The translations under genes and the position numbers were made by a program. From contig NC_081806.1 in the NCBI RefSeq assembly GCF_030704535.1, positions 3,607,001-3,671,000 on the forward strand: a stretch of 64,000 nucleotides of DNA. The letters run 5' to 3'. Positions 27,262 to 52,629 of this stretch are shown here, piece after piece (the stretch's first letter is position 1; every line of letters starts with the position of its first letter). The notes under the pieces were generated by a model, which was not told where the DNA came from, did no database searches, and was given only the letters and a program-made list of their open reading frames with translations. This DNA is from Vitis vinifera (taxonomy: Eukaryota; Streptophyta; Magnoliopsida; Vitales; Vitaceae).

Positions 27262-27540
27262 AACGGTCCAAACCACTGGTCTTGACAAGGAAATATGACA
27301 TACAGTCAAGGAGGGTTTGCTTAAAAGTCATTATCCTACTTGGAAACTACCTCCCTTATTGGGGTACATGGCATTTTTTTAATAATATTTGACTCACTTT
27401 TCCGGGAAACCTAGTTGTAGAAGTCCAAACAGGTTGCTTTTCAGGGGAATTCACGGCATAAATAGAAAAGAAAGTTGCCAGAAATGCCCTAACTGATTAA
27501 AATCATTACCTTTAATTGCAGAGAATTATGTCTATCAATT
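27262..27540. repeat. Shared TLP downstream block
   Basis: Homologous to 32290-32760, 36330-36640 and the pieces flanking the fold-back element (39290-39446, 42937-43020). Landmarks: CGGTCCAAA, TTGACAAGGAAATAT, GGATTTG/GGGTTTGC..AAAAGTCA, TTTGACTC, and a TATA-like GGCATAAATAG. No ORF follows it; possibly an old promoter or 3' region. Confidence 0.55.
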
Positions 27541-28324
27541 AAATAAATTATAAATATATGTTTGAATTGATTTTTAAGAAATTGAATGGTTTTTTAAGTT
27601 CAATAAGAATTTTAATATTGATTTAACTAATTTTATTTAAAAAGCTTATGATTTAAAAAATAGTTTTATATGATTTAGATAAGAAATTATTTAATATTTA
27701 ATATAAGTTTTATAATACTAATATTATGTATTAAAAATTATGATTTTGGTTGGACTCTCAACATTTAGTTAAATCTAAAAGTAGAAAACTATTTCAAACA
27801 AAGTCATGTTTTCTATTTCATTATTAATTAATATATATTTTTTTTAATTCGGATGTGAAAAGGTGTTTCAAAGTTTAAGATTGTCTAATATTTTAAATCA
27901 AAATCTCAATACTTAAATTAAAGAAAAATTTAGATCGTATTTATTTGTTTAATTGAATAGAAAAAATTAAAATATTTAATTTTTTTAATTTTAATTAAAA
28001 GTAATCTATTTATATTAATCAATATAACGAAATCGAATATATTGATAATAAATTTACTTTAAATATCTTAATTGATATTAATATATTACTTGAACTGAAA
28101 AAACTAAAAAGCAAAAAATAAACTCCACACTTAAAAAGATTCTGGGCCATGGATACAGAAGCCCAAAAGATTTATTGATGGGGGCAGTGGGCCTGGCCTG
28201 CCGTGTGCAGCTGCATTTGTTTGACTTGTCCTCAAGCCTAGTCAACGTCTCCGTTCAATGAAGCTGATGTATCGAAAAATCCCAAAAAGCCTCATTTTTC
28301 CCGCCAAACGCGTAAACCCCAAAA
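27541..28324 (+). promoter_or_regulatory. Upstream region of the TLP pseudogene
   Basis: Collinear with 43085-43567, the upstream region of TLP9: GGGCCATGG, GAAGCCCAAAAGATTTATTG, CAGCTG, a TTTGACTTG box (W-box core TTGAC), CGTTCAATGAAG. No clear TATA box. AT-rich further upstream. Confidence 0.55.
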
Positions 28325-30440: not shown

Positions 30441-31086
30441 ACAAGCTTATTTATTTTTGTTTCTTAAAAAAAAAAAAATTATCAGCTTCCCTTGATAAGA
30501 TTTGAGGAAAAACAAAGATGAGGTAGGATTGGCTCTTCCATGCCTCTAAGTCGAGCACCATCTTTTAGATTTTAACAAAGCTTATTGCTAAAATATTTTC
30601 ATTTAGGGTCATTAACTTTAACTTAGGGTTCATCGAGGAACTTTTTCAGAAATAATTCTTAAAAAGTAATTCTCAAGAATAACTTTTAAAAATAATATTT
30701 TAATATTTTTAAAATAAAAAGTTTTGAAGAGCTTAGAATATTGTCAATTTTTTTTTATATTTTTAAATATTTCTTAAAAATAATTCCTATTTATAATACC
30801 TTATTTTAAGACATTCTTCGTGTTTATTCAATAATTCCTAAAAAGTAATTAAAATATAATATATGTAAAAAAAATCACTTTTCATAGTTTTAGTTTTAAA
30901 TTTATAATTAACAATCGAATGTGTTTTTATACTTTTTTTATTCTAAAAACCAAAAAGATAAATCCTTAATAGAAATTTTCAAACATTGTTTTAGTGTCCC
31001 ACCCCAAGTCCACCTTCGCTCTATATAAACTCCTAGCCATTTCCTCACGGACCACCCCAAACCATAAAGCCCATCTTCCTGAAAAA
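30430..31086 (+). promoter_or_regulatory. TLP6 promoter, split by about 390 bp of foreign DNA
   Basis: 30430-30590 matches the proximal module of TLP7/TLP8 (GATAAGATTTGAGGAAAAAC, GGCTCTTCCATGCC, CATCTTTTAGATTTT), though the TGACG word is lost. From about 30590 to 30985 unrelated AT-rich DNA intervenes, then promoter homology resumes at CCCCAAGTCCACCTTCGCTC with TATATAAA at 31022-31029. The distal module is therefore about 390 bp further from the TATA box than in its relatives. Confidence 0.65.
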
Positions 31087-31761
31087 ATGGGCCTCTTCAA
31101 AACCCCTTTAATTTCCTCATTCCTTCTCACCACCCTATTCTTCGCCTCCTGCCACGCAGCCACGCTGATCAACATCCAAAACCATTGCTCCTACACAGTT
31201 TGGGCGGCGGCGGTACCAGGTGGGGGCAGGCAGCTTGGTCCGGGCCAATCCTGGAGCCTCGATGCGAACCCTGGCACAGCCCGTGTGTGGGCACGTACCA
31301 ACTGCACCTTTGATGGGTCAGGGAACGGGACGTGTGAGACCCGAGATTGTGGTGGCCGCCTCCAATGCCAAGCCTATGGTACACCCCCTAACACCTTGGC
31401 CGAATTCGCACTTAACCAATTCAACAACATGGACTTCTTCGATATATCTTTGGTTGATGGATTTAATGTGCCCATGGCTCTTAATTCTACTTCCAATGGG
31501 TGCACCCGTGGCATCCAATGCAGCGCCGACATAGTCGGACAGTGCCCTGATGAGCTCCGAGCTCCCGGTGGTTGCAACAATCCATGCACTGTTTTCAGGA
31601 CCGATGAATATTGTTGTTATTCTGGGAACTGTGGCCCTACAACTTACTCCAAGTTTTTCAAGGATAGGTGTCCGGTGGCTTATAGCAACCCTAATGATGA
31701 TCAAACAAGCACCTTTACATGCCCTGGTGGTACTAACTATGATGTTATCTTCTGCCCATGA
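31087..31761 (+). CDS. Thaumatin-like protein, TLP6 (divergent member)
   Basis: The intact 224-residue protein is read from the ATG at 31087, not from the in-frame upstream ATG at 30994. The chosen start gives [24 protein letters not shown], the family signal peptide, and fits the TATA box 65 bp upstream. All 16 cysteines remain. Odd points: the signature reads CETRDCGG, with Arg in place of the usual Gly/Ala; the C-terminal PDAYSYP box reads PVAYSNP; and there are several new N-glycosylation sequons (NCT, NGT, NST). It may have relaxed constraint or a changed surface. AATAAA at 31821. Confidence 0.9.
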
Positions 31762-34579: not shown

Positions 34580-35311
34580 TATGTTTTGCCTAACATGCCT
34601 ATGTTCTAGTCGTCTACGGAGTTGGTTCGGGATGGCAGTGGAAAATATACTTTAGATATTTTCTCTTCTCTATAGTCAGATGCTTCTGCGTATTTTAAAT
34701 GGTAAAGACCAAAACTCAATTATGATATTATCGAAAATAGACCCAGTCCAAAGTGGTCATTCATACTGGCATAGTTCCAGGAAGGTGATCAACATCAGGG
34801 CTGTCTCATTCAAGAAAGGAAATTTGCACCCACGTTTTCTAGATACATTCCTACTGTTCTGATGATTCGGTATGCACGAATTTATGCAAAGGTTAGGCAG
34901 ATTTCTGAAAATAATAAAAATGGTAATGAAGTGGACCCTTCTCTCTGTAAAATATTTTAAATAAAAAATACTTATTTTTCTAAAAATAAGTATTTTCAAT
35001 ATGTAATATATGTTTTAAAAAAAAAAATTAATTTACAAGCTTATTTATTTTTATTTCTTAAAAATATTATCGGCTTTTGTTGATAAGATTTGAGGAAAGA
35101 AAAAGGGCCACCTCACATCGACTCTTCCATGCCCGCAGGCCCCAACGAAGTCGACCACAAAGATGACGCTATCTTTTGGAATTTTTACAGGGAGGTTTTT
35201 TCACATACACACCAACCCAAGCCCACCTTCACCCTATAAAAACCCCCACCCGGTTCCTCACAGATCACCCCACTCCAACCATCAAGCCTATATATCTTCC
35301 GAAACTCAACA
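34580..35311 (+). promoter_or_regulatory. Promoter and 5'UTR of TLP7
   Basis: The distal block shared with four other TLP promoters lies at about 34660-34900 (TATGATATTATCGAAAATAG, CCCAGTCC). The proximal module has TTTGAGGAAAGAAAAAGG, GTCGACC, TGACG at 35164-35168, and the TATA box TATAAAAA at 35235-35242. Confidence 0.7.
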
Positions 35312-35989
35312 ATGGGCCTCTGCAAAATCCTCTCCATTTCCTCATTCCTTCTCACCACCCTATTCTTCACCTCCAGCTATGCAGCTACGTTCAACATCCA
35401 AAACCATTGCTCCTACACGGTTTGGGCTGCGGCAGTCCCAGGCGGGGGCATGCAGCTTGGCTCAGGCCAATCCTGGAGCCTCAATGTGAATGCCGGCACC
35501 ACTGGAGGCCGTGTTTGGGCCCGTACCAACTGCAACTTCGATGCGTCAGGGAATGGGAAGTGTGAGACCGGGGACTGTGGTGGCCTCCTCCAATGCACGG
35601 CCTATGGTACACCCCCTAACACCTTAGCCGAATTCGCACTTAACCAATACAGCAACTTGGACTTCTTTGATATATCTTTGGTTGATGGATTTAATGTTGC
35701 TATGGCCTTTAATCCTACTTCCAATGGGTGCACCCGTGGCATCAGTTGCACCGCCGACATCGTGGGAGAGTGCCCCGCTGCGCTAAAGACTACCGGTGGT
35801 TGCAACAACCCATGCACCGTTTTCAAGACCGATGAATATTGTTGCAATTCTGGGAGCTGTAATGCTACAACTTACTCCGAGTTTTTCAAGACTAGGTGCC
35901 CTGATGCTTATAGCTACCCTAAGGACGATCAGACAAGCACCTTCACATGCCCTTCCGGGACCAATTATGAAGTTATCTTCTGCCCATAA
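35312..35989 (+). CDS. Osmotin-like / thaumatin-like protein, TLP7
   Basis: Intact 225-residue single-exon ORF: signal peptide 1-24, 16 cysteines, signature [16 protein letters not shown], ending at FCP without a tail. It is nearly the same as TLP8 through residue ~180, but a short stretch ([13 protein letters not shown] 35865-35890) follows the TLP9 sequence rather than TLP8/TLP4, and CPSGTN near the end also differs from TLP8 (CTAGTN). This mosaic pattern suggests gene conversion. AATAAA at 36082. Confidence 0.93.
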
Positions 35990-37629: not shown

Positions 37630-38327
37630 AATGGATTTTCTTTGAATTGGTTGCCTCACAATATTTTAAATGATAAAGACTAAAATTCAATTATGATATT
37701 ATCGAAAATAGTCCCAATCTAACGACTAGTCAAGATATTTGAAGTGGCCAATCGTATTGGAAGAATTCCAGGAAGGTGCTCAACAGGGTTGTCTCATTCA
37801 AATAAGGAAATTTGAAATAAATTTTCTCAATACCATGCACCCACGTTTTCTAGATACATTCCTACTGTTCTCAGAATTGAGTGCTCATGAATTTACATAG
37901 AAGTTAGGCAGATTTCTGGAAATAATAAAAATGATAATCACGTAGAACCTTGTCTCTGTAAATTATTTTAAATAAAAAATACTTATTTTTCTAAAAATAA
38001 GTATTTTCAAAATGTAATATATGTTTTTTTTTTTTTTAAATAATAATAATTTACAAGCTTTTTTATTTTTATTTCTTAAAAAAATTATGGGCTTTTGTTG
38101 ATAAGATTTGAGGAAAAACAAAAAGGGCCACACTACATTGACTCTTCCATGCCTACAGGCCACAACGAAGTCGACCACAAAGATGACGCCATCTTTTGGA
38201 ATTTTTACAGGACGGTTTTTCCACATACACACCAACCCAAGCCCACCTTCACCCTATATAAACCCCCACCCATTTCCTCACAGATCACCCCACTCCAACC
38301 ATCAAGCCTATCTTCCGATCCTCAACA
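37630..38327 (+). promoter_or_regulatory. Promoter and 5'UTR of TLP8
   Basis: The distal shared block lies at about 37630-37930, the proximal module has GTCGACC and TGACG at 38184-38188, and TATATAAA is at 38255-38262. The TGACG-to-TATA spacing is 71 bp, as in TLP7. Confidence 0.72.
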
Positions 38328-39005
38328 ATGGGCCTCTGCAAAATCCTCTCCATTTCCTCATTCCTTCTCACCGCCCTATTCTTCACCCCCAGCTATGCAG
38401 CCACCTTCAACATCCAAAACCATTGCTCCTACACGGTTTGGGCTGCGGCAGTCCCAGGCGGGGGCATGCAGCTTGGCTCAGGCCAATCCTGGAGCCTCAA
38501 TGTGAATGCCGGCACCACTGGAGGCCGTGTTTGGGCCCGTACCAACTGCAACTTCGATGCATCAGGGAATGGGAAGTGTGAGACCGGGGACTGTGGTGGC
38601 CTCCTCCAATGCACGGCCTATGGTACACCCCCTAACACCTTAGCCGAATTCGCACTTAACCAATTCAGCAACTTGGACTTCTTTGATATATCTTTGGTTG
38701 ATGGATTTAATGTGCCTATGGCCTTTAATCCTACTTCCAATGGGTGCACCCGTGGCATCAGTTGCACCGCCGACATCGTGGGAGAGTGCCCCGCTGCGCT
38801 AAAGACTACCGGTGGTTGCAACAACCCATGCACCGTTTTCAAGACCGATGAATATTGTTGCAATTCTGGGAGCTGTAGTGCTACAGATTACTCAAGGTTT
38901 TTCAAGACTAGGTGCCCTGATGCTTATAGCTACCCTAAGGACGATCAGACAAGCACCTTCACATGCACTGCCGGTACCAATTATGAAGTTGTCTTCTGCC
39001 CATAA
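38328..39005 (+). CDS. Osmotin-like / thaumatin-like protein, TLP8
   Basis: Intact 225-residue single-exon ORF: signal peptide 1-24 ([11 protein letters not shown]), 16 cysteines, signature [38 protein letters not shown], and no tail after FCP. It is a recent tandem duplicate of the TLP7 unit, with promoter and 3' flank copied along. Likely a secreted PR-5 protein. AATAAA at 39098. Confidence 0.93.
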
Positions 39006-39446
39006 ATCTATTATTTAAATCATATGCTAGTATGCCTCTACTAGTCTCAACTATTAGGAGGCAATGGTTTCCACCTTGGGTTCCAAAAGCCTAGAGGAAT
39101 AAAGTTGGGCACATTTTCGTGGTCATGTAACAAGATTTCTACACTAGTAGAAGTAATGGATGTTTTTTTTTTTTATATATATATATATATATATAGATTT
39201 ATGCGATCTTCTTTCTTTCTAACCTCTATGGTCCCGTCCAAGTAATATTTCATATATATTTTATTCTATATAATATCTGCGGATAAGATCGGTTAATGAA
39301 GCTTGACTAAAGTCAAAATTTTATTTTATTTCATTATCCTACTTGGAAACTACCTTCCTTACTGGGTACATGGCATTTTTTTTTTAATAATATTTGACTC
39401 AGGTTTCCGAGAAAACATTGTAGCAGTCCAAACACGGCGTAAATTG
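39006..39446. other. 3' flank of TLP8 up to the fold-back element
   Basis: 3'UTR, a (TA)n run at about 39174-39195, then the shared downstream block, which is cut by the fold-back element at 39447 and continues after 42946. The left target-site copy GCGTAAATTG is 39437-39446. Confidence 0.7.
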
Positions 39447-41058
39447 GGACTTTTCTCAATAGTAGAGTAATTTAAAAAAGTTATTCTTCAATTACTGTAG
39501 TGGAAGAAGTTATTACAAATATAGGGTAGTTTTTGCCAGATAGGAGAGAGGAGAGAGGAGAGAGGGTGAGAGAGAGGAGAGAGGAAAGAGGAGATAGGAG
39601 AGAGGAGAGAGGAGAGAGGGTGAACGGGTAAAATTTTTTAAAAAAGGGAACTCGTCTCTTGAAGAGACGAGTTCCATGAAAAAAAATATATATATAATTT
39701 TTAAAAAATTCTCAAATTAAAAAAAAAAAAATTGGAACTAAAGGCTTGACACGAGTTCCCATGGGAAAAATATATATTATTTATTTAAAATATATTTTTC
39801 ATTTAAAAAAAATCCCAAAAAAAATAAAAAATAAAATTTCTAAAAGGAACTCGTCTCTTTTTTAAAAAAAATATATTTTTTATTTTAAAATCCCAAATTT
39901 AAAAAAAAAAAACGCAATTCCAAAAGGAACTCGTCTCTTTAAAAATATATATATTTAAAAAAAAAAATTCCTAAAGGGAACTCGTCTCTTGAAGAGACGA
40001 GTTCCCTTTAGGAAAAAAAATATTTTGTTTTTAAAATATATTTTTTATTTTAAAAAATCCCAAATAAAAAAAAATAAAAAATAAAAAACAATTCCAAAGG
40101 GAACTCGTCTCTTCAAGAGACGAGTTCCCATGTAAAAAAAAATATTTTTTTAAAAAATATATATATTTAAAAAAAAAAATTCAGAGTTACTTTAGGAAAA
40201 AAAATATTTTTTTTTTAAAATATATTTTTTATTTTAAAAAATCCCAAATTTAAAAAAAAAAAAACACAATTCCAAAGGGAACTCGTCTCTTCAAGAGACG
40301 AGTTCCCATGTAAAAAAAATATTTTTTTTAAATATATATATTAAAAAAAAAAAAACAATTCCTCAAAATTCCTAAAGGAACTCGTCTCTTGTAAAAAATT
40401 TTTTTTTTAAAAAATATATATATATATTTAAAAAAAAAAAATTAAGAGTTCCCTTTAGGAAAAAAAATAATTTTTAAAAAAAATATATTTTTATTTTAAA
40501 AAATCCCAAAAAAAAAAAAAAAAAAAAAAAACAATTCCAAAGGGAACTCGTCTCTTCAAGAGACGAGTTCCCTTGTAAAAAAAAAATTATTTTTTTTAAA
40601 TATATATATTAAAAAAAAAAAAAAAAAACAATTCCTCAAAATTCCTAAAGGAACTCGTCTCTTGAAGAGACGAGTTCCCATGTAAAAAAATATATATATA
40701 TATATATATATATTTAAAAAAATAAAAATTCAGAGTTCCCTTTAGGAAAAAAAAATAATTTTTTTAAAAAATATATATATATTTTTAAAAAATATATTTT
40801 TTATTAAAAAATATATTTTTTATTTTAAAAAATCCCAAATTAAAAAAAAAATTATTATTTTTAAATATAAAAAAAAAAAAAAAAAAAAACAATTCCTCAA
40901 AATTCCTAAAGGAACTCGTCTCTTGAAGAGACGAGTTCCCATGTAAAAAAAAAAAAAAATTTTAAAAAAATATATATTTAAAAAAATAAAAATTCAGAGT
41001 TCCCTTTAGGAAAAAAAATAATTTTTTTTAAAAAATATATTTTTTATTTTAAAAAATC

Positions 41059-41089
<31 letters not shown>

Positions 41090-41354
41090 CACAATTCCAA
41101 AGGGAACTCGTCTCTTCAAGAGACGAGTTCCCTTGTAAAAAAAATTATTATTTTTAAATATATATATATTAAAAAAAAAAAAAAAAAAAAACAATTCCTC
41201 AAAATTCCTAAAGGAACTCGTCTCTTCAAGAGACGAGTTCCCATATAAAAAAAAAAATTAAAAAAAAATATATATTTAAAAAAATAAAAATTCAGAGTTC
41301 CCTTAGGAAAAATAATAATTTTTTAAAAAAATATATTTTTTATTTTAAAAAATC

Positions 41355-41385
<31 letters not shown>

Positions 41386-42936
41386 CACAATTCCAAAGGG
41401 AACTCGTCTCTTATTTTTTTTTTTTCCATAGGAACTCGTCTCTTCAATAGACGAGTTCCCTTGATGAATTGTTTTTTTTTTTTTTTTTTTTAAATATATT
41501 TTTTTAAAAAAAATTTGTTTTTACGTGGGAACTCATCTTAAAGAGACGAGTTCCCTTGAGGAATTGTTTTTTTATTTTATTTTATATTTTATTTTAATAT
41601 ATATATTTTAAAATAAAAAATATTTTTAAGAGACGAGTTCCTTTGGAATTGTGTTTTTTTTTTTTTTTTTTAATTTGGGATTTTTTAAATTTTTTAAAAA
41701 AATAATTTTTTTTCCTAAAGGGAATTCTGAATTTTTAATTTTTTAAATATATATATTTAAAAATTTTTTTTTTTTTAAAAAACATATATTTTTTTTAATA
41801 TATATATATATTTAAAAATATATATATATTTTTTTACATGGGAACTCGTCTCTTGAAGAGACGAGTTCCCTTTGGAATTGTGTGTGTGTTTTTTTTTTTT
41901 TTTTTTTTTTTAATTTGGGATTTTTTAAAATAAAAAATATATTTTTAAAAAAAATTCTTTTTTTTCCTAAAGGGAACTCTGAATTTTTTTTTTTAATATA
42001 TATATTTAAAAAAAAATATTTTTTTTTTACATGGGAACTCGTCTCTTCAAGAGACGAGTTCCCTTTGGAATTGTGTTTTTTTTTTTTTTTTTTCTTTTTT
42101 TTAATTTGGGATTTTTTAAAATAAAAAATATTTTTTTTTTCCTAAAGGGAACTCTGAATTTTTTTTTTAAATATATATATATTTTTTAAAAAAATATTTT
42201 TAAAAAAAAAATATTTTTTTTTGTTTTTTTTTTTTTAATTTGGGATTTTTTAAAATAAAAAATATATTTTAAAAAAAAAATATTTTTTTTCCTAAAGGGA
42301 ACTCGTCTCTTCAAGAGACGAGTTACCTTTAGGAATTTTTTTTTTAAATATATATATTTTAAAAAAAAAATATTTTTTTTACATGGGAACTCGTCTCTTC
42401 AAAAGACGAGTTCCTTTTGGAATTGTGTTTTTTTTTTTTTTTTTTTTAATTTAGGATTTTTTAAAATAAAAAATATATTTTTAAAAAAAATTATTTTTTT
42501 TCCCAAGGAACTCGTCTCTTGAAGAGACGAGTTCCCTTTAGAAATTTTTTTTTTTTTTTTTTGGATTTTTTTAAATAAAAAATATATTTTAAATAAATAA
42601 TATATTTTTTTTCCCAGGGAACTCGTCTGAAGCCTTTAGTTCCAAATTTTTTTTTTTAATTTGAGAATTTTTTAAAAATTATATATATATATTTTTTCAT
42701 GGAACTCGTCTCTTCAAGAGACGAGTTCCCTTTTTTAAAAAATTTTACCCGTTCATCCTCTCTCCTCTCTCCTATCTCCTCTTTCCTCTCTCCTCTCTCC
42801 TCTCTCTCACCCTCTCTCCTCTCTCCTCTCTCCTCTCTCCTATGTGGCAAAAACTACCCTATATTTGTAATAACTTCTTCCACTACAGTAATTGAAGAAT
42901 AACTTTTTTAAATTACTCTACTATTGAGAAAAGTCC
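39447..42936. mobile_element. Giant fold-back element with palindromic minisatellite, 3.49 kb
   Basis: The left end is GGACTTTTCTCAATAGTAGA and the right end its exact complement; the outer inverted repeat runs at least 90 bp. A 10-bp direct repeat GCGTAAATTG flanks it (39437-39446, 42937-42946). Such a length fits a Mutator-like element. Inside the outer ends lie (GAGAGGA)n on the left and (TCCTCTC)n on the right, then two arms of about 1.7 kb, A-rich on the left and T-rich on the right, meeting near 41.4-41.5 kb. The arms hold about two dozen copies of a palindrome: GGGAACTCGTCTCTT, one centre base (G or C), then its complement. No transposase or other gene. Confidence 0.9.
39645..42732. 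repeat. Array of about 24 palindromic units (full and half)
   Basis: Full or near-full palindromes start near 39645, 39976, 40099, 40278, 40543, 40650, 40912, 41100, 41213, 41433, 41530, 41840, 42035, 42298, 42388, 42508 and 42702. Half units lie near 39845, 39928, 40377, 41398 and 41630, and degraded ones near 39757 and 42620. Between them recur AATTCCAAAGGG, ACAATTCCTCAAAATTCCTA, AATTCAGAGTTCCC and AAAAAATCCCAAAT, so a higher-order unit of several hundred bp is repeated. Positions are read by eye and good to a few bases. Confidence 0.82.
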
Positions 42937-42946
42937 GCGTAAATTG

Positions 42947-43567
42947 TCATAGCCCTTTATTGCAGAGAATAGTGGAAAAGAAAGTTGTTAAAAGTGGCAT
43001 AAGTAATTCAAACCATAACCCTATATTGAGGAGAGTTATGACTTATGACACATAAATATTGAAGTTCCACTTGTCTATCAATTAAATAAATATATGTTTT
43101 AATTTATTTTTGTAAAAAAAATCAATAAGATTTTTAATATTTATTTTACTAATTTTATTTAAAGAACTTATGATTTAAAAACGAGTTTAATATGATTTAG
43201 ATAAGAAATATTTTAATATTTAATATAAATTTTATAATACTAATATTACCTATTAAAAATTAAGATTTTGGTTGCACCATCAACATTTAGTTAAATCTAA
43301 AAATAAAAAACTATTTCAAACAAAGCTTTATTTATTCATCTATCATGCTAATGGAGCCTCAGAAGTTAAAAAGATTAACTGGGCCATGGTTATAGAAGCC
43401 CAAAAGATTTATTGATGGGGCGGAGCAGGTGGGCCTGGCCTGCCATGTGCAGCTGTATTTTTTTGACTTGTCTTCAAGACAACAAGTCAACGCCTCCGTT
43501 CAATGAAGCGGATGTATCGGAAAAACCCAAAAGCTTCATTTTCCCCTCAAAACGCGTAAACCCCAAA
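42947..43567 (+). promoter_or_regulatory. Upstream region of TLP9
   Basis: The continuation of the interrupted downstream block (to about 43020), then sequence collinear with the pseudogene upstream region (27541-28324). A TTTGACTTG W-box core lies near 43462 and another AGTCAAC (the complement of GTTGACT) near 43486. No clear TATA box. Confidence 0.55.
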
Positions 43568-44251
43568 ATGAGCTTCTTCTGCAACTGCAGCAACCTCTCT
43601 ACTTCCTTCTGCCTCCTCATCCTCCCGTTCTTCTTCACCTTCATCCATGCAACCACTTTCGAAATCCAAAACAGCTGCCCCTACACCATCTGGGCAGCCG
43701 CCGTACCCGGCGGCGGAAGGCAACTCGACCAAGGCCAGACCTGGAACCTTTCAGTGAGCTCCAACATAACGGGCCGCATCTGGGGCAGAACCAAGTGCAG
43801 CTTCGATGAAGCCGGAAGGGGGAGCTGCGAGTCCGGTGGATGTGGAGGCCTCCTTGAATGCCAAGAATATGGTTCACCGCCCAACACCATTGCCGAGTAC
43901 ACCCTAAACCAATCCAACAAAACTGATTTATTCGATGTTTCTCTGGTGGATGGATTCAACCTTCCAATGGAGTTTAGCCCAACTTCTGATGGGTGCAGAG
44001 GGGCCAATTGTACAGGCGACATTAACGGGCCGTGCCCAAATGAGTTGAGGGACCCGGGTGGGTGTAACAACCCATGTACCGTTTTCAAAAATTCTCAGTA
44101 CTGTTGCGATTCCGGGAGCTGTGGCCCTACAACTTACTCCGAGTTTTTCAAGGATAGGTGCCCAAATGCATACAGTTACCCTGAGGATGATTCAACCAGT
44201 TTGTTTACGTGCTCCACTGGCTCTAACTATCGTGTAGTCTTCTGCCCTTGA
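43568..44251 (+). CDS. Thaumatin-like protein with variant signature, TLP9
   Basis: Intact 227-residue protein from the ATG at 43568; the longer frame upstream (from 43412) lacks a signal peptide at its start and has no counterpart in relatives. Signal peptide about 1-28 (FFFTFIHA), all 16 mature cysteines. The thaumatin signature reads [16 protein letters not shown]: Ser replaces Thr and Gly replaces the invariant Asp of [11 protein letters not shown] reads PNAYSYP. Four N-glycosylation sequons are visible (NLS, NIT, NKT, NCT). With the pseudogene at 28325 it forms a separate subgroup. AATAAA at 44353. Confidence 0.9.
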
Positions 44252-48239: not shown

Positions 48240-48869
48240 TGTAGTCATCCGCGGAGTTGGTTCGAGAGGACATTGGAAAATCACACAAAGTGATCATGTG
48301 CCTTTAATTGGAAAATAAACAGTGGATTTTCTCTTCTCTAGAATTGGTTGCTTCTCAGATAAAGGTCAAAATTCAATTATGATATTATGGAAAATAGTCC
48401 CAGTCGAACCAATTTTCAAGGCATTTGAAGTGGCCATTCATTCAAGAAAGGAAGTTTGAAATAAATTTTTCCAACGCAACGCGGCACGCACCCGGCCATG
48501 TTTTCAAGATGCCTTCCTACCTGTCCTCAGAATTCAGTATTCATGAATTTCCATAAAAGTTAGACAGGTTTCTGAAAATAATAAAAATGATAATGATGTG
48601 GACCCCTTGAAATAAATTCAGTATTCATGAATGGGCAATTCTGGTTCTTTCATCATCTTTTTATCTGTAATCAATCATCCAATCAAGTCCAACAAAATGC
48701 TGAAATTTCCATTCGAATTAACCCACTTCTCACGTAATCTCCCAAACCATAGCCACCCTTCATCTATAAAAACCCCACCATACATCCATCTCCAAGACAC
48801 CGCATTAGCCCAAACCCATAAGAATTCTAAATACTTCGATTCTGATCATCTGATTCATTCAACATCAAA
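48240..48869 (+). promoter_or_regulatory. Promoter and 5'UTR of VVTL1
   Basis: The distal block shared with other TLP promoters lies at about 48310-48560 (TCTTCTCTAGAATTGGTTGC, CAATTATGATATTATGGAAA, ATAGTCCCAGTC). TATAAAAA at 48765-48772 lies 98 bp before the ATG. A TGACG element in the proximal position is not seen. Confidence 0.7.
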
Positions 48870-49538
48870 ATGCGCTTCACCACCACCCTCCCAATTCTCT
48901 TCCCTCTCCTCCTCAGCCTCCTCTTTACCTCCACCCATGCAGCCACCTTCGACATCCTCAACAAATGCACCTACACCGTCTGGGCAGCCGCCTCCCCCGG
49001 TGGTGGACGGAGACTTGACTCCGGCCAGTCCTGGACAATCACCGTCAACCCCGGCACCACCAATGCTCGCATCTGGGGCCGAACCTCATGCACCTTCGAC
49101 GCCAATGGGCGTGGCAAATGCGAAACTGGTGACTGCAATGGCCTCCTCGAATGCCAGGGCTACGGTTCTCCCCCAAACACCCTCGCTGAATTCGCTCTAA
49201 ACCAGCCCAATAACCTCGACTACATCGACATCTCCCTTGTCGATGGCTTCAACATCCCCATGGACTTCAGCGGCTGCCGCGGCATCCAGTGCTCCGTTGA
49301 CATCAATGGGCAATGCCCCAGTGAGTTGAAGGCCCCCGGTGGATGCAACAACCCGTGTACAGTGTTCAAGACCAATGAGTATTGTTGCACTGATGGACCT
49401 GGAAGCTGTGGTCCGACCACATACTCCAAATTCTTCAAGGACAGGTGCCCAGATGCTTATAGCTACCCTCAGGATGACAAAACCAGCTTGTTCACCTGTC
49501 CTTCTGGTACCAACTACAAGGTCACGTTTTGCCCTTGA
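48870..49538 (+). CDS. VVTL1: Thaumatin-like protein 1 of grape berry (VVTL1)
   Basis: Intact 222-residue single-exon ORF. Signal peptide 1-24 ends STHA; the mature protein starts [20 protein letters not shown] and runs 198 residues with 16 cysteines, ending YKVTFCP. As I remember the published berry protein VVTL1, this is the same sequence apart from perhaps one signal-peptide residue. VVTL1 is an abundant soluble protein of ripe berries that survives winemaking and takes part in protein haze. The acidic-cleft residues ([15 protein letters not shown]) are kept. Compared with the osmotin-like members it lacks the PTS stretch before the sixth cysteine (DFSGCRG) and has an extra DGPG loop after YCC. 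AATAAA at 49626. Confidence 0.93.
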
Positions 49539-51800
49539 AAGTTGGAACTCATTTTCCTTCACTTTCTTGGTGAATGAAAAGAGTACAAGACACCCAGGAA
49601 AGTTTTAGTTTTCAGCGTAGAGAAGAATAAATTTGTGCACGTAATGATAGTATTGTGCGCATGTGATGTGATAATCAGTCTGTAATGTGATTCCAGTGAA
49701 AAATAAATGAAGAAGCCTACTTACTCATTTTCACCTTGGATGAAACTTGTCAACCTATTTAACTTCTTTAACAAAAACATAGTTTTTGGGTTCAACCTCC
49801 ATAATACAAAACCCTTCATTATTTTTTGGCCTCATTCATTTATTTATTTATTTATAAAAATAACTCTTTCTTTTAAAACACACATATAAATACTTGAAAT
49901 AGTTAAGGACATTTATGTTAAAAATTGATTACTCTTCAAACAAAAACATGGAAGAGGTTAAATTCATAAATATGAAGACTATTTCATCCCTTTTAACTAA
50001 TTAATTCTTAAATGAATTACATAATATATTACTTGTTTAATAATTTGATAATATTTGAATTTATATTTTTAATACGATTATTATTTGTATCAGATTTAGA
50101 TTAACTTATATAATAGAAAGCTTAGGCTTTAACACTATACTAATATAACCATCTTACACAAATTGCCACCCCATTTGTTGTTGGGACTGGTTGGAGGAAC
50201 ACACCTAACCCAGCCCACCAAATTTGCAACTGGATGGCTTGAAATTTAGGCCCATGATGTCGGCCCAATTTATATTAATGAGCCCAAACCCATCAGCATA
50301 CACTTTATGAAGGACATGAAATCCAAATAGGCTGATATGAAACGAACCCCTATAAAGAAAAAGCCAGCAAATCCCAAACTGAAATTCAGAATTGAATATG
50401 TGAGAATCTTTCAATTTCCAACAACACCCGACAGCGGCCCATACTGATATAGGCTGTCTTCAAGCAGAATATTTTTTTTTTTACTACTAGATCTGAAACA
50501 AGTAGTGGAAGCCCGAACAGGCCCAATAGATTCCTTCGACACCCGACAATAATCTACGAATCAAACAGGTTTCTAATTTGAGTACAGATCTAATAAACTA
50601 ATTAATAATTCTTTTTTCTTTTCTGTAAAATAAAAAAGGACTTTTGAGCTTGAATTTTTTTTCAGATTAAATCTAAGCGGTCAATAATATTTCAAAGAAA
50701 TGTTTTTTTTAATAATAAAGATTAATTTACTAGTTTAGGGATAGTAAATAAACTATATTTATTGAAGCCCGATCCAAGCTTCAGTGACAAGGGTGATAAA
50801 ACAATACTTTTATAAATCTAGAGAGTAATCATGAATACCTCTAAAATCATAATAAAATCAATTTAAAATTATTATTTAGATTTTATATTTTAAAAAAGAG
50901 TTAAATTTCTTATAAATTAATAAAGCTTAGTTTCAAGGACAAGTGTTAGGAGACCATGTGTGATAAAAATAAAAATAAAAACCCCAAATGGGAATAAGAT
51001 TTTTAATATTTTTTAAATGTTCTCATAAAATTATTATGAAAATCGTAATTATTGGATCTTTGATAGTCGTATTTGAGAGGCTAAATTAAATCTTTTATAA
51101 TATTCAATTATTATTGTTTGAATGATTTATCCATTTTATTTAAAAGTAGTATATTGTTACACCCTAATAATAATTATAAAAATTATTTAATATTTTTAAT
51201 AATTAAGAAATTATTTTCAATTTTATAATAATTTGTGAAGTTTTAATTGAAAAAAAACATTTTTAATTAGATTTATCCGATTTGAAAGTAAATTTTAAGA
51301 GAATTTCTAAATTTTGTATTTGAATCGGAAGTTATTAAACTTCTCACCAATTAACATAAATTTAAAAGTAATTTTTTAACTATCATGTTTTATAAATCTT
51401 TGTGTAAAAGTTTTCCAATCAAACTTTTTGACTTTAGACCTGCGTGGGATTGAAAGATGTCCCACACACACCACGCGGCATCAAACTCCTTGATATTAAT
51501 CTTGATCTTATCCTCGCCAAATAGGAGGCCATGATTCCATATTTCCATTACACTCTGTCACGGACCACGGCCACCTTCCCAAATCCCCAGATCAACAAAA
51601 ACCAGCACTCCATGCCTCGGTACCTGGGCACAAAAAGTCAAAGTAGCCGCCTCCATAAAATAAGTGGGACACTGATCGACACATGGCATCCTGGCCTGGA
51701 CTGCAGAGCAGAGGATCATCCCCAAACTTTTATCCTCACGAGGAGCCGCCTGTACTTTAATGAGAAAAGTAGAGACGTGCCTTTATTTGCACCAAGCCAA
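49539..51800. other. Intergenic DNA between VVTL1 and the osmotin gene, no gene seen
   Basis: 3'UTR of VVTL1, then AT-rich DNA. 50150-50600 is of higher complexity (CAGCCCACCAAATTTGCAAC, CCCGACAGCGGCC) but has no convincing ORF. From about 51430 the sequence becomes GC-richer, likely the distal promoter of the next gene. Confidence 0.6.
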
Positions 51801-51909
51801 AACGCAGCGTTTCCTCTATATAAACCCCCTGGTGTCATTGATGAGGCACAAGCCAAAATACACCACACCTGACATCTATACTCCGATTGTCAGCTCCAAG
51901 CTTCCCAGT
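51430..51909 (+). promoter_or_regulatory. Promoter and 5'UTR of the osmotin gene
   Basis: TATATAAA at 51817-51824, about 93 bp before the ATG. CACACACACCACGCGGC near 51461 and ACACATGGCATCC near 51680 lie upstream. It has no obvious similarity to the other TLP promoters in the window. Confidence 0.6.
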
Positions 51910-52629
51910 ATGAGCGACTTGCGCATCCTCTTTATCTTCTTCCTCTGCTTCATCTCCTCCATCCATGCAGCCACCTTCCAAATCACCAACCAGTGTTCTT
52001 ACACCGTCTGGGCAGCTGCCTCTCCCGGTGGCGGCCGCCGCCTGGACCGCGGCCAAAGCTGGACCCTCAACGTGCCCGCTGGCACCAAAATGGCCCGAAT
52101 CTGGGGTCGAACCAACTGCCACTTCGATGCCAGTGGTCGTGGCCGGTGCGATACCGGTGACTGTGGCGGCGTCCTGAACTGTCAAGGCTGGGGTTCTCCA
52201 CCAAACACACTAGCAGAATACGCCTTGAACCAGTTTGGTAACAAGGATTTTTTCGATATATCTCTCGTTGATGGGTTCAACATCCCTATGGACTTCAGCC
52301 CCACCAGCCGCGGGTGCCGTGGAATCAAGTGCACGGCGAATATCAACGGGCAATGCCCGCAGGCGTTGAAAGCTCCGGGAGGGTGCAATAACCCGTGTAC
52401 CGTGTTCAAGACTCCGCAGTACTGCTGCAACAATATTAAATGTGGACCGACAGATTATTCGAGATTTTTCAAGACCAGGTGCCCAGATGCGTACAGTTAT
52501 CCTCAGGATGATCCCACAAGCACATTTACATGCCCTGGTGGAACCAACTATAGGGTTGTGTTCTGCCCTAGAGGCTCTTCCAACAATATTTTTCCTCTGG
52601 AGATGTATGGAAGTGATAGTGAGGAGTAA
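51910..52629 (+). CDS. Osmotin-like protein with vacuolar-type C-terminal tail, TLP12
   Basis: Intact 239-residue protein from the ATG at 51910, chosen over the in-frame ATG at 51760 because it starts a signal peptide ([20 protein letters not shown], 1-20) and lies downstream of the TATA box. 16 cysteines, signature [30 protein letters not shown]. After FCP it continues for 19 residues containing FPLEMYGSD, which closely resembles the FPLEM-GSD tail of tobacco osmotin, a propeptide that sends osmotin to the vacuole. It is the only member here with such a tail. Osmotins are induced by salt, ABA, ethylene and pathogens and permeabilise fungal membranes. Confidence 0.93.

Follow-up and report, generated by a model that had tools for sequence, protein, structure and literature searches.

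What is the 3,490-bp palindrome that lies between two thaumatin-like genes of the grapevine, how did it get there, and what happens within its interior of smaller palindromes? The stretch of DNA analyzed here, called the window throughout, comprises 64,000 nucleotides of Vitis vinifera (assembly GCF_030704535.1, contig NC_081806.1, positions 3,607,001 to 3,671,000; G000:C2:3607001-3671000 of the 496-Mb genome in our numbering). An initial annotation, made from the letters alone, had placed a nested palindrome element at 39447-42936, and these limits proved exact. Taken as a whole, our observations are best explained if the element derives, as a non-autonomous foldback form, from a MuDR-type family of Mutator-like elements (MULEs), a reading that we regard as highly probable.

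Structure of the element

The outer ends are inverted repeats without a single difference, and the 10-bp target-site duplication (TSD) claimed for the element is present on both sides (GCGTAAATTG; lengths of 8, 9 and 11 bp give 6, 6, and 7 mismatches). The GAGAGGA-like tracts inside both ends were recovered by Tandem Repeats Finder (TRF) as period-7 repeats (Table 1). The left and right arms are 95.6% identical across 88% of the outer 1,200 bp per end; the large hairpin formed by both arms is real but imperfect. With inverted repeats making up nearly the whole element and tandem subrepeats within them, the structure is that of a foldback (FB-like) element.

The interior had been described as about two dozen small hairpins. 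The palindromic hairpins are there, but the number was somewhat high: we count 35 exact half-sites (mean 0.0 in 200 shuffles of the element) and 13 palindromes with exact 13-bp arms, among which 7 are perfect 31-mers. As single-stranded DNA, the 31-mer has a predicted folding energy of -15.3 kcal/mol (shuffle mean -3.6) and the 51-nt stretch around it one of -25.3 kcal/mol (shuffle mean -5.2). The higher-order repeats noted in the arms measure ~80-210 bp (TRF). Each palindrome unit is directional, with CCAAA on one side and ATGTAAA on the opposite side. Across 21 foldback copies, the left halves hold 88 forward, 34 reverse and 19 unclear units and the right halves 82 reverse, 28 forward and 17 unclear, so that the inverted unit direction between halves is a tendency, not a rule.

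A family with coding members

Searches of the genome with the end sequence and with the palindrome revealed a family. The terminal 24 bp were found at 251 sites (up to 3 mismatches) and the perfect 31-mer with a G or C centre 499 times, with 0 matches for the reversed control in either case. Among the matches listed, 9 of 13 palindrome clusters on C1 and C2 lie within ~5 kb of an end. The palindrome had 0 matches in collections of phage/viral and prokaryote contigs, which do not extend to other plants.

We read 23 copies with both ends. Fourteen have a perfect 10-bp TSD (one of these, L010, sits in a TA repeat) and three a duplication with one mismatch. As copies with their own target duplications occur on many contigs, the window element is not a single assembly join. 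Three copies (L011, L014, L016) contain a 2,500-N run, and their apparent lengths are not real. One copy (L038 6121-8936) carries a perfect 9-bp target duplication, CAAAAACTT, instead of one of 10 bp. The same end sequence, in a variant (..TACGGTAA), is also found paired 1.3-1.5 kb apart (G000:C1:3252344-3253681, C5:1989965-1991444, C6:22850154-22851697), probably representing a shorter non-autonomous subfamily.

Some members of the family carry genes. The copy on C7 (14,090 bp) has the same ends and a perfect target duplication, and is organized as terminal inverted repeat (TIR), palindrome array, plant-mobile-domain (PMD) gene (+), array, transposase (-), short array and TIR. The gene plan is the same in a C3 copy (13,640 bp, one TSD mismatch) and in two C9 copies, each read with one end, and every coding copy read has arrays in its three non-coding stretches. 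In the first C9 copy, the 860-aa transposase ORF scores above the cut-offs for MULE (3.2e-18), DBD_Tnp_Mut (4.1e-11), SWIM (5.8e-9) and Transposase_mut, and PMD pieces pass the PMD profile cut-off. At least 58 transposase matches exist in the genome (53 of 1,190 candidates were scored), including two near-identical full-length matches, on C9 and C7, without internal stop. In two copies (L034 652-1716, L019 5316-6164), tandem peptide repeats of the RTRGGG(V/M) type, different in number between copies, lie in a frame that overlaps the end of the PMD coding sequence.

The foldbacks lack these genes. When the 23 copies were compared with the PMD segment, only those on C3 and C7 matched, and in the 21 foldbacks the matches to the transposase segment (best four per copy) were confined to its first 135 bp, which are array sequence. 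The window copy has no match to the coding segments and no transposase coding sequence; a captured gene within it was rejected on the same ground. Since the PMD and transposase gene segments are absent from the foldbacks, we consider the window copy a gene-less foldback MULE.

The earlier guess of Mutator-type mobilization is supported: many copies have 10-bp duplications, the window copy falls within the 9-11 bp of Mutator-like elements, and a MULE-domain transposase is encoded by relatives whose ends and arrays are the same. Against it stand the 5 of 23 copies without a TSD and the 1 of 23 with 9 bp. The accompanying impression that the interior belongs to no named family is weakened, because palindrome arrays are also found inside coding MULEs of the same genome; the element therefore derives from a MuDR-type family, possibly one that has been catalogued before. 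Judging from the shared ends, the transposase of the relatives would recognize them and move gene-less copies in trans, leaving 10-bp duplications.

Origin and transmission of the foldback form

The foldback form probably arose when the middle with its genes was lost, and spread thereafter as a foldback; the palindromes are subrepeats and multiply along with the tandem units. Alternatively, each foldback could have formed separately when one end of a coding element was duplicated in inverted orientation, so that its two arms would be sisters. Within a copy, the arms are indeed alike in register (95.6% in the window, 92-98% in most others). Yet the window left arm is closest to the left arm of L011 (98%) and the window right arm to the left arm of L010 (98%), each closer than the window arms are to one another; these values count N-N pairs as matches, and those pairing L011, L014 and L016 mutually were not used. 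In a tree of the ends, read without regard to support values and with 126 N ignored, the left window end groups with the right ends of L009, L010 and L012 and both ends of L011, and the right window end with the left ends of L009, L010 and L012, i.e., with ends of the opposite side. Separate formation of every foldback is thus very unlikely. Because the window arms are nearer to the arms of other copies than to each other, copies appear to be transmitted already in foldback form. In the other subfamily, the C7 element's left end (PMD side) and that of the C9 element (transposase side) fall among different foldback ends, a placement that is suggestive of, and expected from, loss of the middle.

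Turnover of the centre base

The one-base centre of the palindrome is variable in a particular way. In 525 palindromes of 25 elements it is C in 263, G in 258, A in 2 and T in 2, and in the whole genome only 7 perfect 31-mers have an A/T centre. To compare corresponding units, arms at least 95% identical were aligned and palindromes with identical 80-bp flanks kept, with L011, L014 and L016 dropped. The centre differs in 14 of 94 such pairs, always G<->C, as opposed to 13 of 2,444 arm sites. As pairwise comparisons share arms, counts by group are the sounder figure: the centre is polymorphic in 10 of 30 identical-flank groups (97 units, 12 elements), while the 26 arm columns together show 7 group-column changes (p 7e-11). 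When flanks of 95% identity are admitted, it differs in 18 of 32 groups, against 24 group-column arm changes. If the identical-flank rule is omitted, centres differ in 188/529, 36/99 and 5/46 pairs at arm identities of 95-97, 97-98.5 and >98.5%, and the 5-bp right junctions in 18, 13 and 2%. The low junction difference under the rule (1/94 right, 0 left) is built in, as identical flanks are the selection rule. Different units of one arm meet the rule in 0.26% of 1,941 comparisons, and misregister alone is thus not the explanation.

This G<->C turnover is best read, from the aligned copies, as inversion of the hairpin core, which would most likely occur by template switching or by inversion at the hairpin tip. 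In yeast, template switching is reported to invert the spacers of short inverted repeats, leaving the arms mostly unchanged (PMC8604942). Where those inverted repeats are perfect, their spacers flip back and forth more than once, as the centre appears to do here; the yeast data comprise ten events in coding genes, with 2-5 bases changed, in contrast to a single centre base in hundreds of copies.

Several observations weigh against a simple version of in-place inversion. Centre-discordant pairs differ more often at the unit junction (23/124) than concordant ones (27/283), and the centre base is associated with the type of right junction (p 3e-4; left junction, p 0.44), both of which point to some unit exchange or misalignment. 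The arm homogenization expected from whole-arm template switching was not seen: at positions 3-15 there are 4 double changes versus 4.4 expected. Nor were mirrored arm variants found in any of the 76 aligned pairs in which both palindromes are imperfect. Short gene conversion or unequal exchange among palindromes could instead have shuffled the centre, and since the arms are near-identical in all palindromes, a conversion tract within the 31 bp would be visible at the centre only and would look like a centre flip. We regard such shuffling as possible but on balance doubtful, given the pairs that remain discordant between identical 80-bp flanks, the rarity of such flank identity between different units of one arm, and a G:C ratio near 50:50, which is the equilibrium of inversion.

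Two readings of the hairpin as a whole were rejected on the same counts. Symmetric arm substitutions, as a sign of a selected or self-corrected hairpin, do not exceed expectation at positions 3-15; over all positions there are 7 symmetric and 19 non-symmetric double changes versus 75 expected, a deficit located at position 1, the unit being asymmetric there. That the palindrome inverts as a whole is not supported, given the lack of mirrored variants. Seven centre-discordant pairs (which share few units) retain a distal arm variant in place. Imperfect palindromes differ less often at the centre (7/63 versus 78/238), but nearly all of them carry a single shared outermost variant and the pairs are non-independent, so that we base no conclusion on this count.

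If inversion of the core is the correct reading, the 499 perfect copies with a turning one-base centre would constitute a natural assay of the frequency of short-hairpin inversion in a plant nuclear genome.

Conservation and possible recognition of the palindrome

In 414 oriented palindromes, positions 2-30 except the centre keep their main base at 94-100%, the CpG positions 8 and 24 (96.9 and 97.6%) belonging to the less conserved ones. Conservation seems lower in the flanks than in the palindrome, a comparison that is unfair because of one-base shifts and A/T runs in the flanks.

One reading of this conservation is that the arrays are putative recognition arrays for a family-encoded PMD protein or transposase, comparable to those of VANC proteins (DUF1985), whose targets are short motifs repeated in tandem in non-coding regions (PMC5735166). 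The presence of arrays in every non-coding stretch of the coding copies read would fit such a role. However, the DUF1985 match of one PMD piece reached 17.5 bits, below the curated cut-off of 35.1, and recent origin alone could also account for the conservation. The DOWN motif, CATGCAGTTT, the only one proposed for plant PMD proteins in the available part of PMC9899485, is unrelated to the palindrome, and this motif of MAIN/MAIL1 was rejected as a match. On this evidence we consider recognition arrays distinctly unlikely.

Orientation of the PMD gene

The direction of the PMD gene divides the family. Where the transposase is at least 89% identical to that of the C9 copy, the PMD gene is convergent in 10 of 12 copies, at 2.7-3.8 kb, and the remaining two have no PMD within 6 kb. 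In copies below 89%, it is co-directional and downstream in 28 of 37 (12 of these at 124-157 bp) and convergent in one, which overlaps a partial match; the other 8 of the 37 have no PMD within 6 kb. The count is based on 49 of 58 transposase rows, split copies being represented by one piece each, and on 63 of 133 PMD rows (those left out being mostly <57% identical), for which reason the figures for absence of PMD are upper bounds. In each of the four convergent copies that were read, PMD and transposase are separated by a palindrome array. Repeat searches in the 9 kb read of a distant sister (L045, transposase 64% identical) found no such arrays. Antisense PMD has already been reported for most members of the MUDR clade (PMC6446971). 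At G000:C8:18419232-18421270, a partial transposase match runs into an opposite-strand PMD match, the two sharing about a dozen bases; this may be a junction left by a deletion in a convergent copy.

A PMD gene turned around through recombination of inverted arrays would fit this distribution, and we infer that the arrays flanking PMD offered a route to the gene inversion that marks the family. The split between convergent and co-directional copies suggests that the arrays may rearrange the transposon's own genes. A more far-reaching proposal holds that the 31-bp palindrome is a self-encoded recognition signal: the PMD protein or transposase would bind the arrays, foldbacks would spread as dense carriers of the signal, and the hairpins would invert in vivo, often at the centre and once around the PMD gene, turning co-directional into convergent. 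We give this combination a low probability; if it were true, the genome would hold hundreds of natural flip-flop recorders of hairpin extrusion.

The window copy as a possible source of silencing RNA

The initial annotation had pointed to the element as a candidate source of small RNA. A putative read-through transcript might form an extended duplex and contribute to silencing the family, which would make the window copy a candidate silencing source like Mu killer of maize, acting through a long hairpin and small interfering RNA (siRNA). The two inverted arms with ends common to the coding copies are in line with this, as are the long TIRs of MULEs, which are often sources of siRNA (PMC10398659), and Mu killer is likewise a long inverted structure with MULE terminal sequence (PMC3440606). 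Mu killer, however, includes part of the transposase gene mudrA, with a proposed role for its RNA, whereas the window copy has inverted arms without any transposase sequence. We therefore think that such a function is unlikely.

Relation to known elements

Eighteen grape Mutavine families have been described (Mutavine-1 to -18, Repbase MUDRAVI1 and others; Benjak et al., 2008, PMC2528002). They are similar to the present family in their MuDR-type transposase, long elements and non-autonomous relatives. In contrast, the available part of that paper gives 9-nt duplications only, where the present family has mainly 10 bp, and the term "palindrom" is not in its main text. Mutavine-1 (MUDRAVI1) is our best guess at a name, compared by description only: at 17.7 kb, with a 70-bp TIR and 43 copies with transposase, it agrees only roughly in size and TIR length with the coding relatives of ~14 kb. 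Against this name, the MUDRAVI subgroup is listed without PMD in the passages available of Dupeyron et al. (2019; PMC6446971), whereas the coding relatives here carry PMD. The MUDR clade (group 50) of the same study shares the 9-10 bp TSD, SWIM and a mostly antisense PMD with our family; palindrome arrays are not mentioned in those passages.

Foldback MULEs are already known. FARE of Arabidopsis and Tm1 of root-knot nematodes have long composite TIRs with tandem subrepeats in variable number, and comprise gene-less as well as transposase-bearing members (PMC3169594, on the description in which the FARE comparison rests). Tm1 differs in its direct subrepeats of 13-15 bp and a 9-bp TSD, where each unit of the window family carries a 31-bp palindrome. 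MULEs with duplicated TIRs have also been described (PMC3310237). What is unusual here is that palindromic subrepeats are common to coding and gene-less members.

The VANDAL MULEs resemble the family in that they carry an accessory gene and, outside their coding parts, tandem motif arrays that change fast (PMC5735166, PMC10398659), and VANC proteins are reported to have repeat-bearing variable regions (PMC5735166), to be compared with the RTRGGG(V/M) repeats at the PMD end. They differ in a 9-bp same-orientation motif instead of a palindrome, in degenerate instead of exact 91-bp TIRs, and in a DUF1985 accessory protein instead of PMD, the DUF1985 score here lying below the cut-off as given above.

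A literature search over titles and the starts of abstracts, with most subscription journals outside it, yielded no description of palindromic arrays in a grape MULE. Neither GGAACTCGTCTCTT nor AAGAGACGAGTTCC occurs in any paper of the collection searched. Within this literature, the centre-base turnover and the PMD orientation split seem unreported.

Insertion site and neighboring genes

The element is a real insertion. Its joined flanks align through the insertion point to an uninterrupted, element-free paralogous stretch of the thaumatin-like cluster within the window (Table 1). This single empty site is a diverged paralogue, in which the 10 target letters are not conserved. A genome search with the joined window flanks returned the two flanks themselves and one partial third match only.

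Table 1. Features of the foldback element and its paralogous empty site (window coordinates)
Feature	Position	Strand	Basis
Left target-site duplication GCGTAAATTG	39437..39446	+	0 mismatches at 10 bp
Left terminal inverted repeat, 91 bp	39447..39537	+	100% identical to right end
Left purine microsatellite AGAGAGG, 12.0 copies, period 7	39538..39619	+	TRF
Left arm, directional units and 31-bp palindromes in A/T spacers	39646..41190	+	Arm limit = element midpoint
Right arm, inverted counterpart of left arm	41191..42730	-	Arm alignment
Right purine microsatellite, 12.6 copies, period 7	42756..42841	- (other-strand reading)	TRF
Right terminal inverted repeat, 91 bp	42846..42936	-	End comparison
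Right target-site duplication GCGTAAATTG	42937..42946	+	0 mismatches at 10 bp
Paralogous empty site, older duplicate of gene cluster	27328..27803	+	383/499 aligned columns identical

The position between two thaumatin-like genes, as initially annotated, is supported by the flanking ORFs. The element starts 441 bp downstream of ORF 38262-39005 and ends ~630 bp upstream of the likely ATG of ORF 43379-44251, as placed by reading of the ORF. Given how close the element lies to this likely translation start, it would be worthwhile to score which varieties carry it. Both ORFs belong to a tandem cluster at 30973-52629, named thaumatin-like/osmotin-like by reading of the translations, in which all ORFs (30973-31761, 35240-35989, 38262-39005, 43379-44251, 48846-49538 and 51676-52629) are on the + strand.

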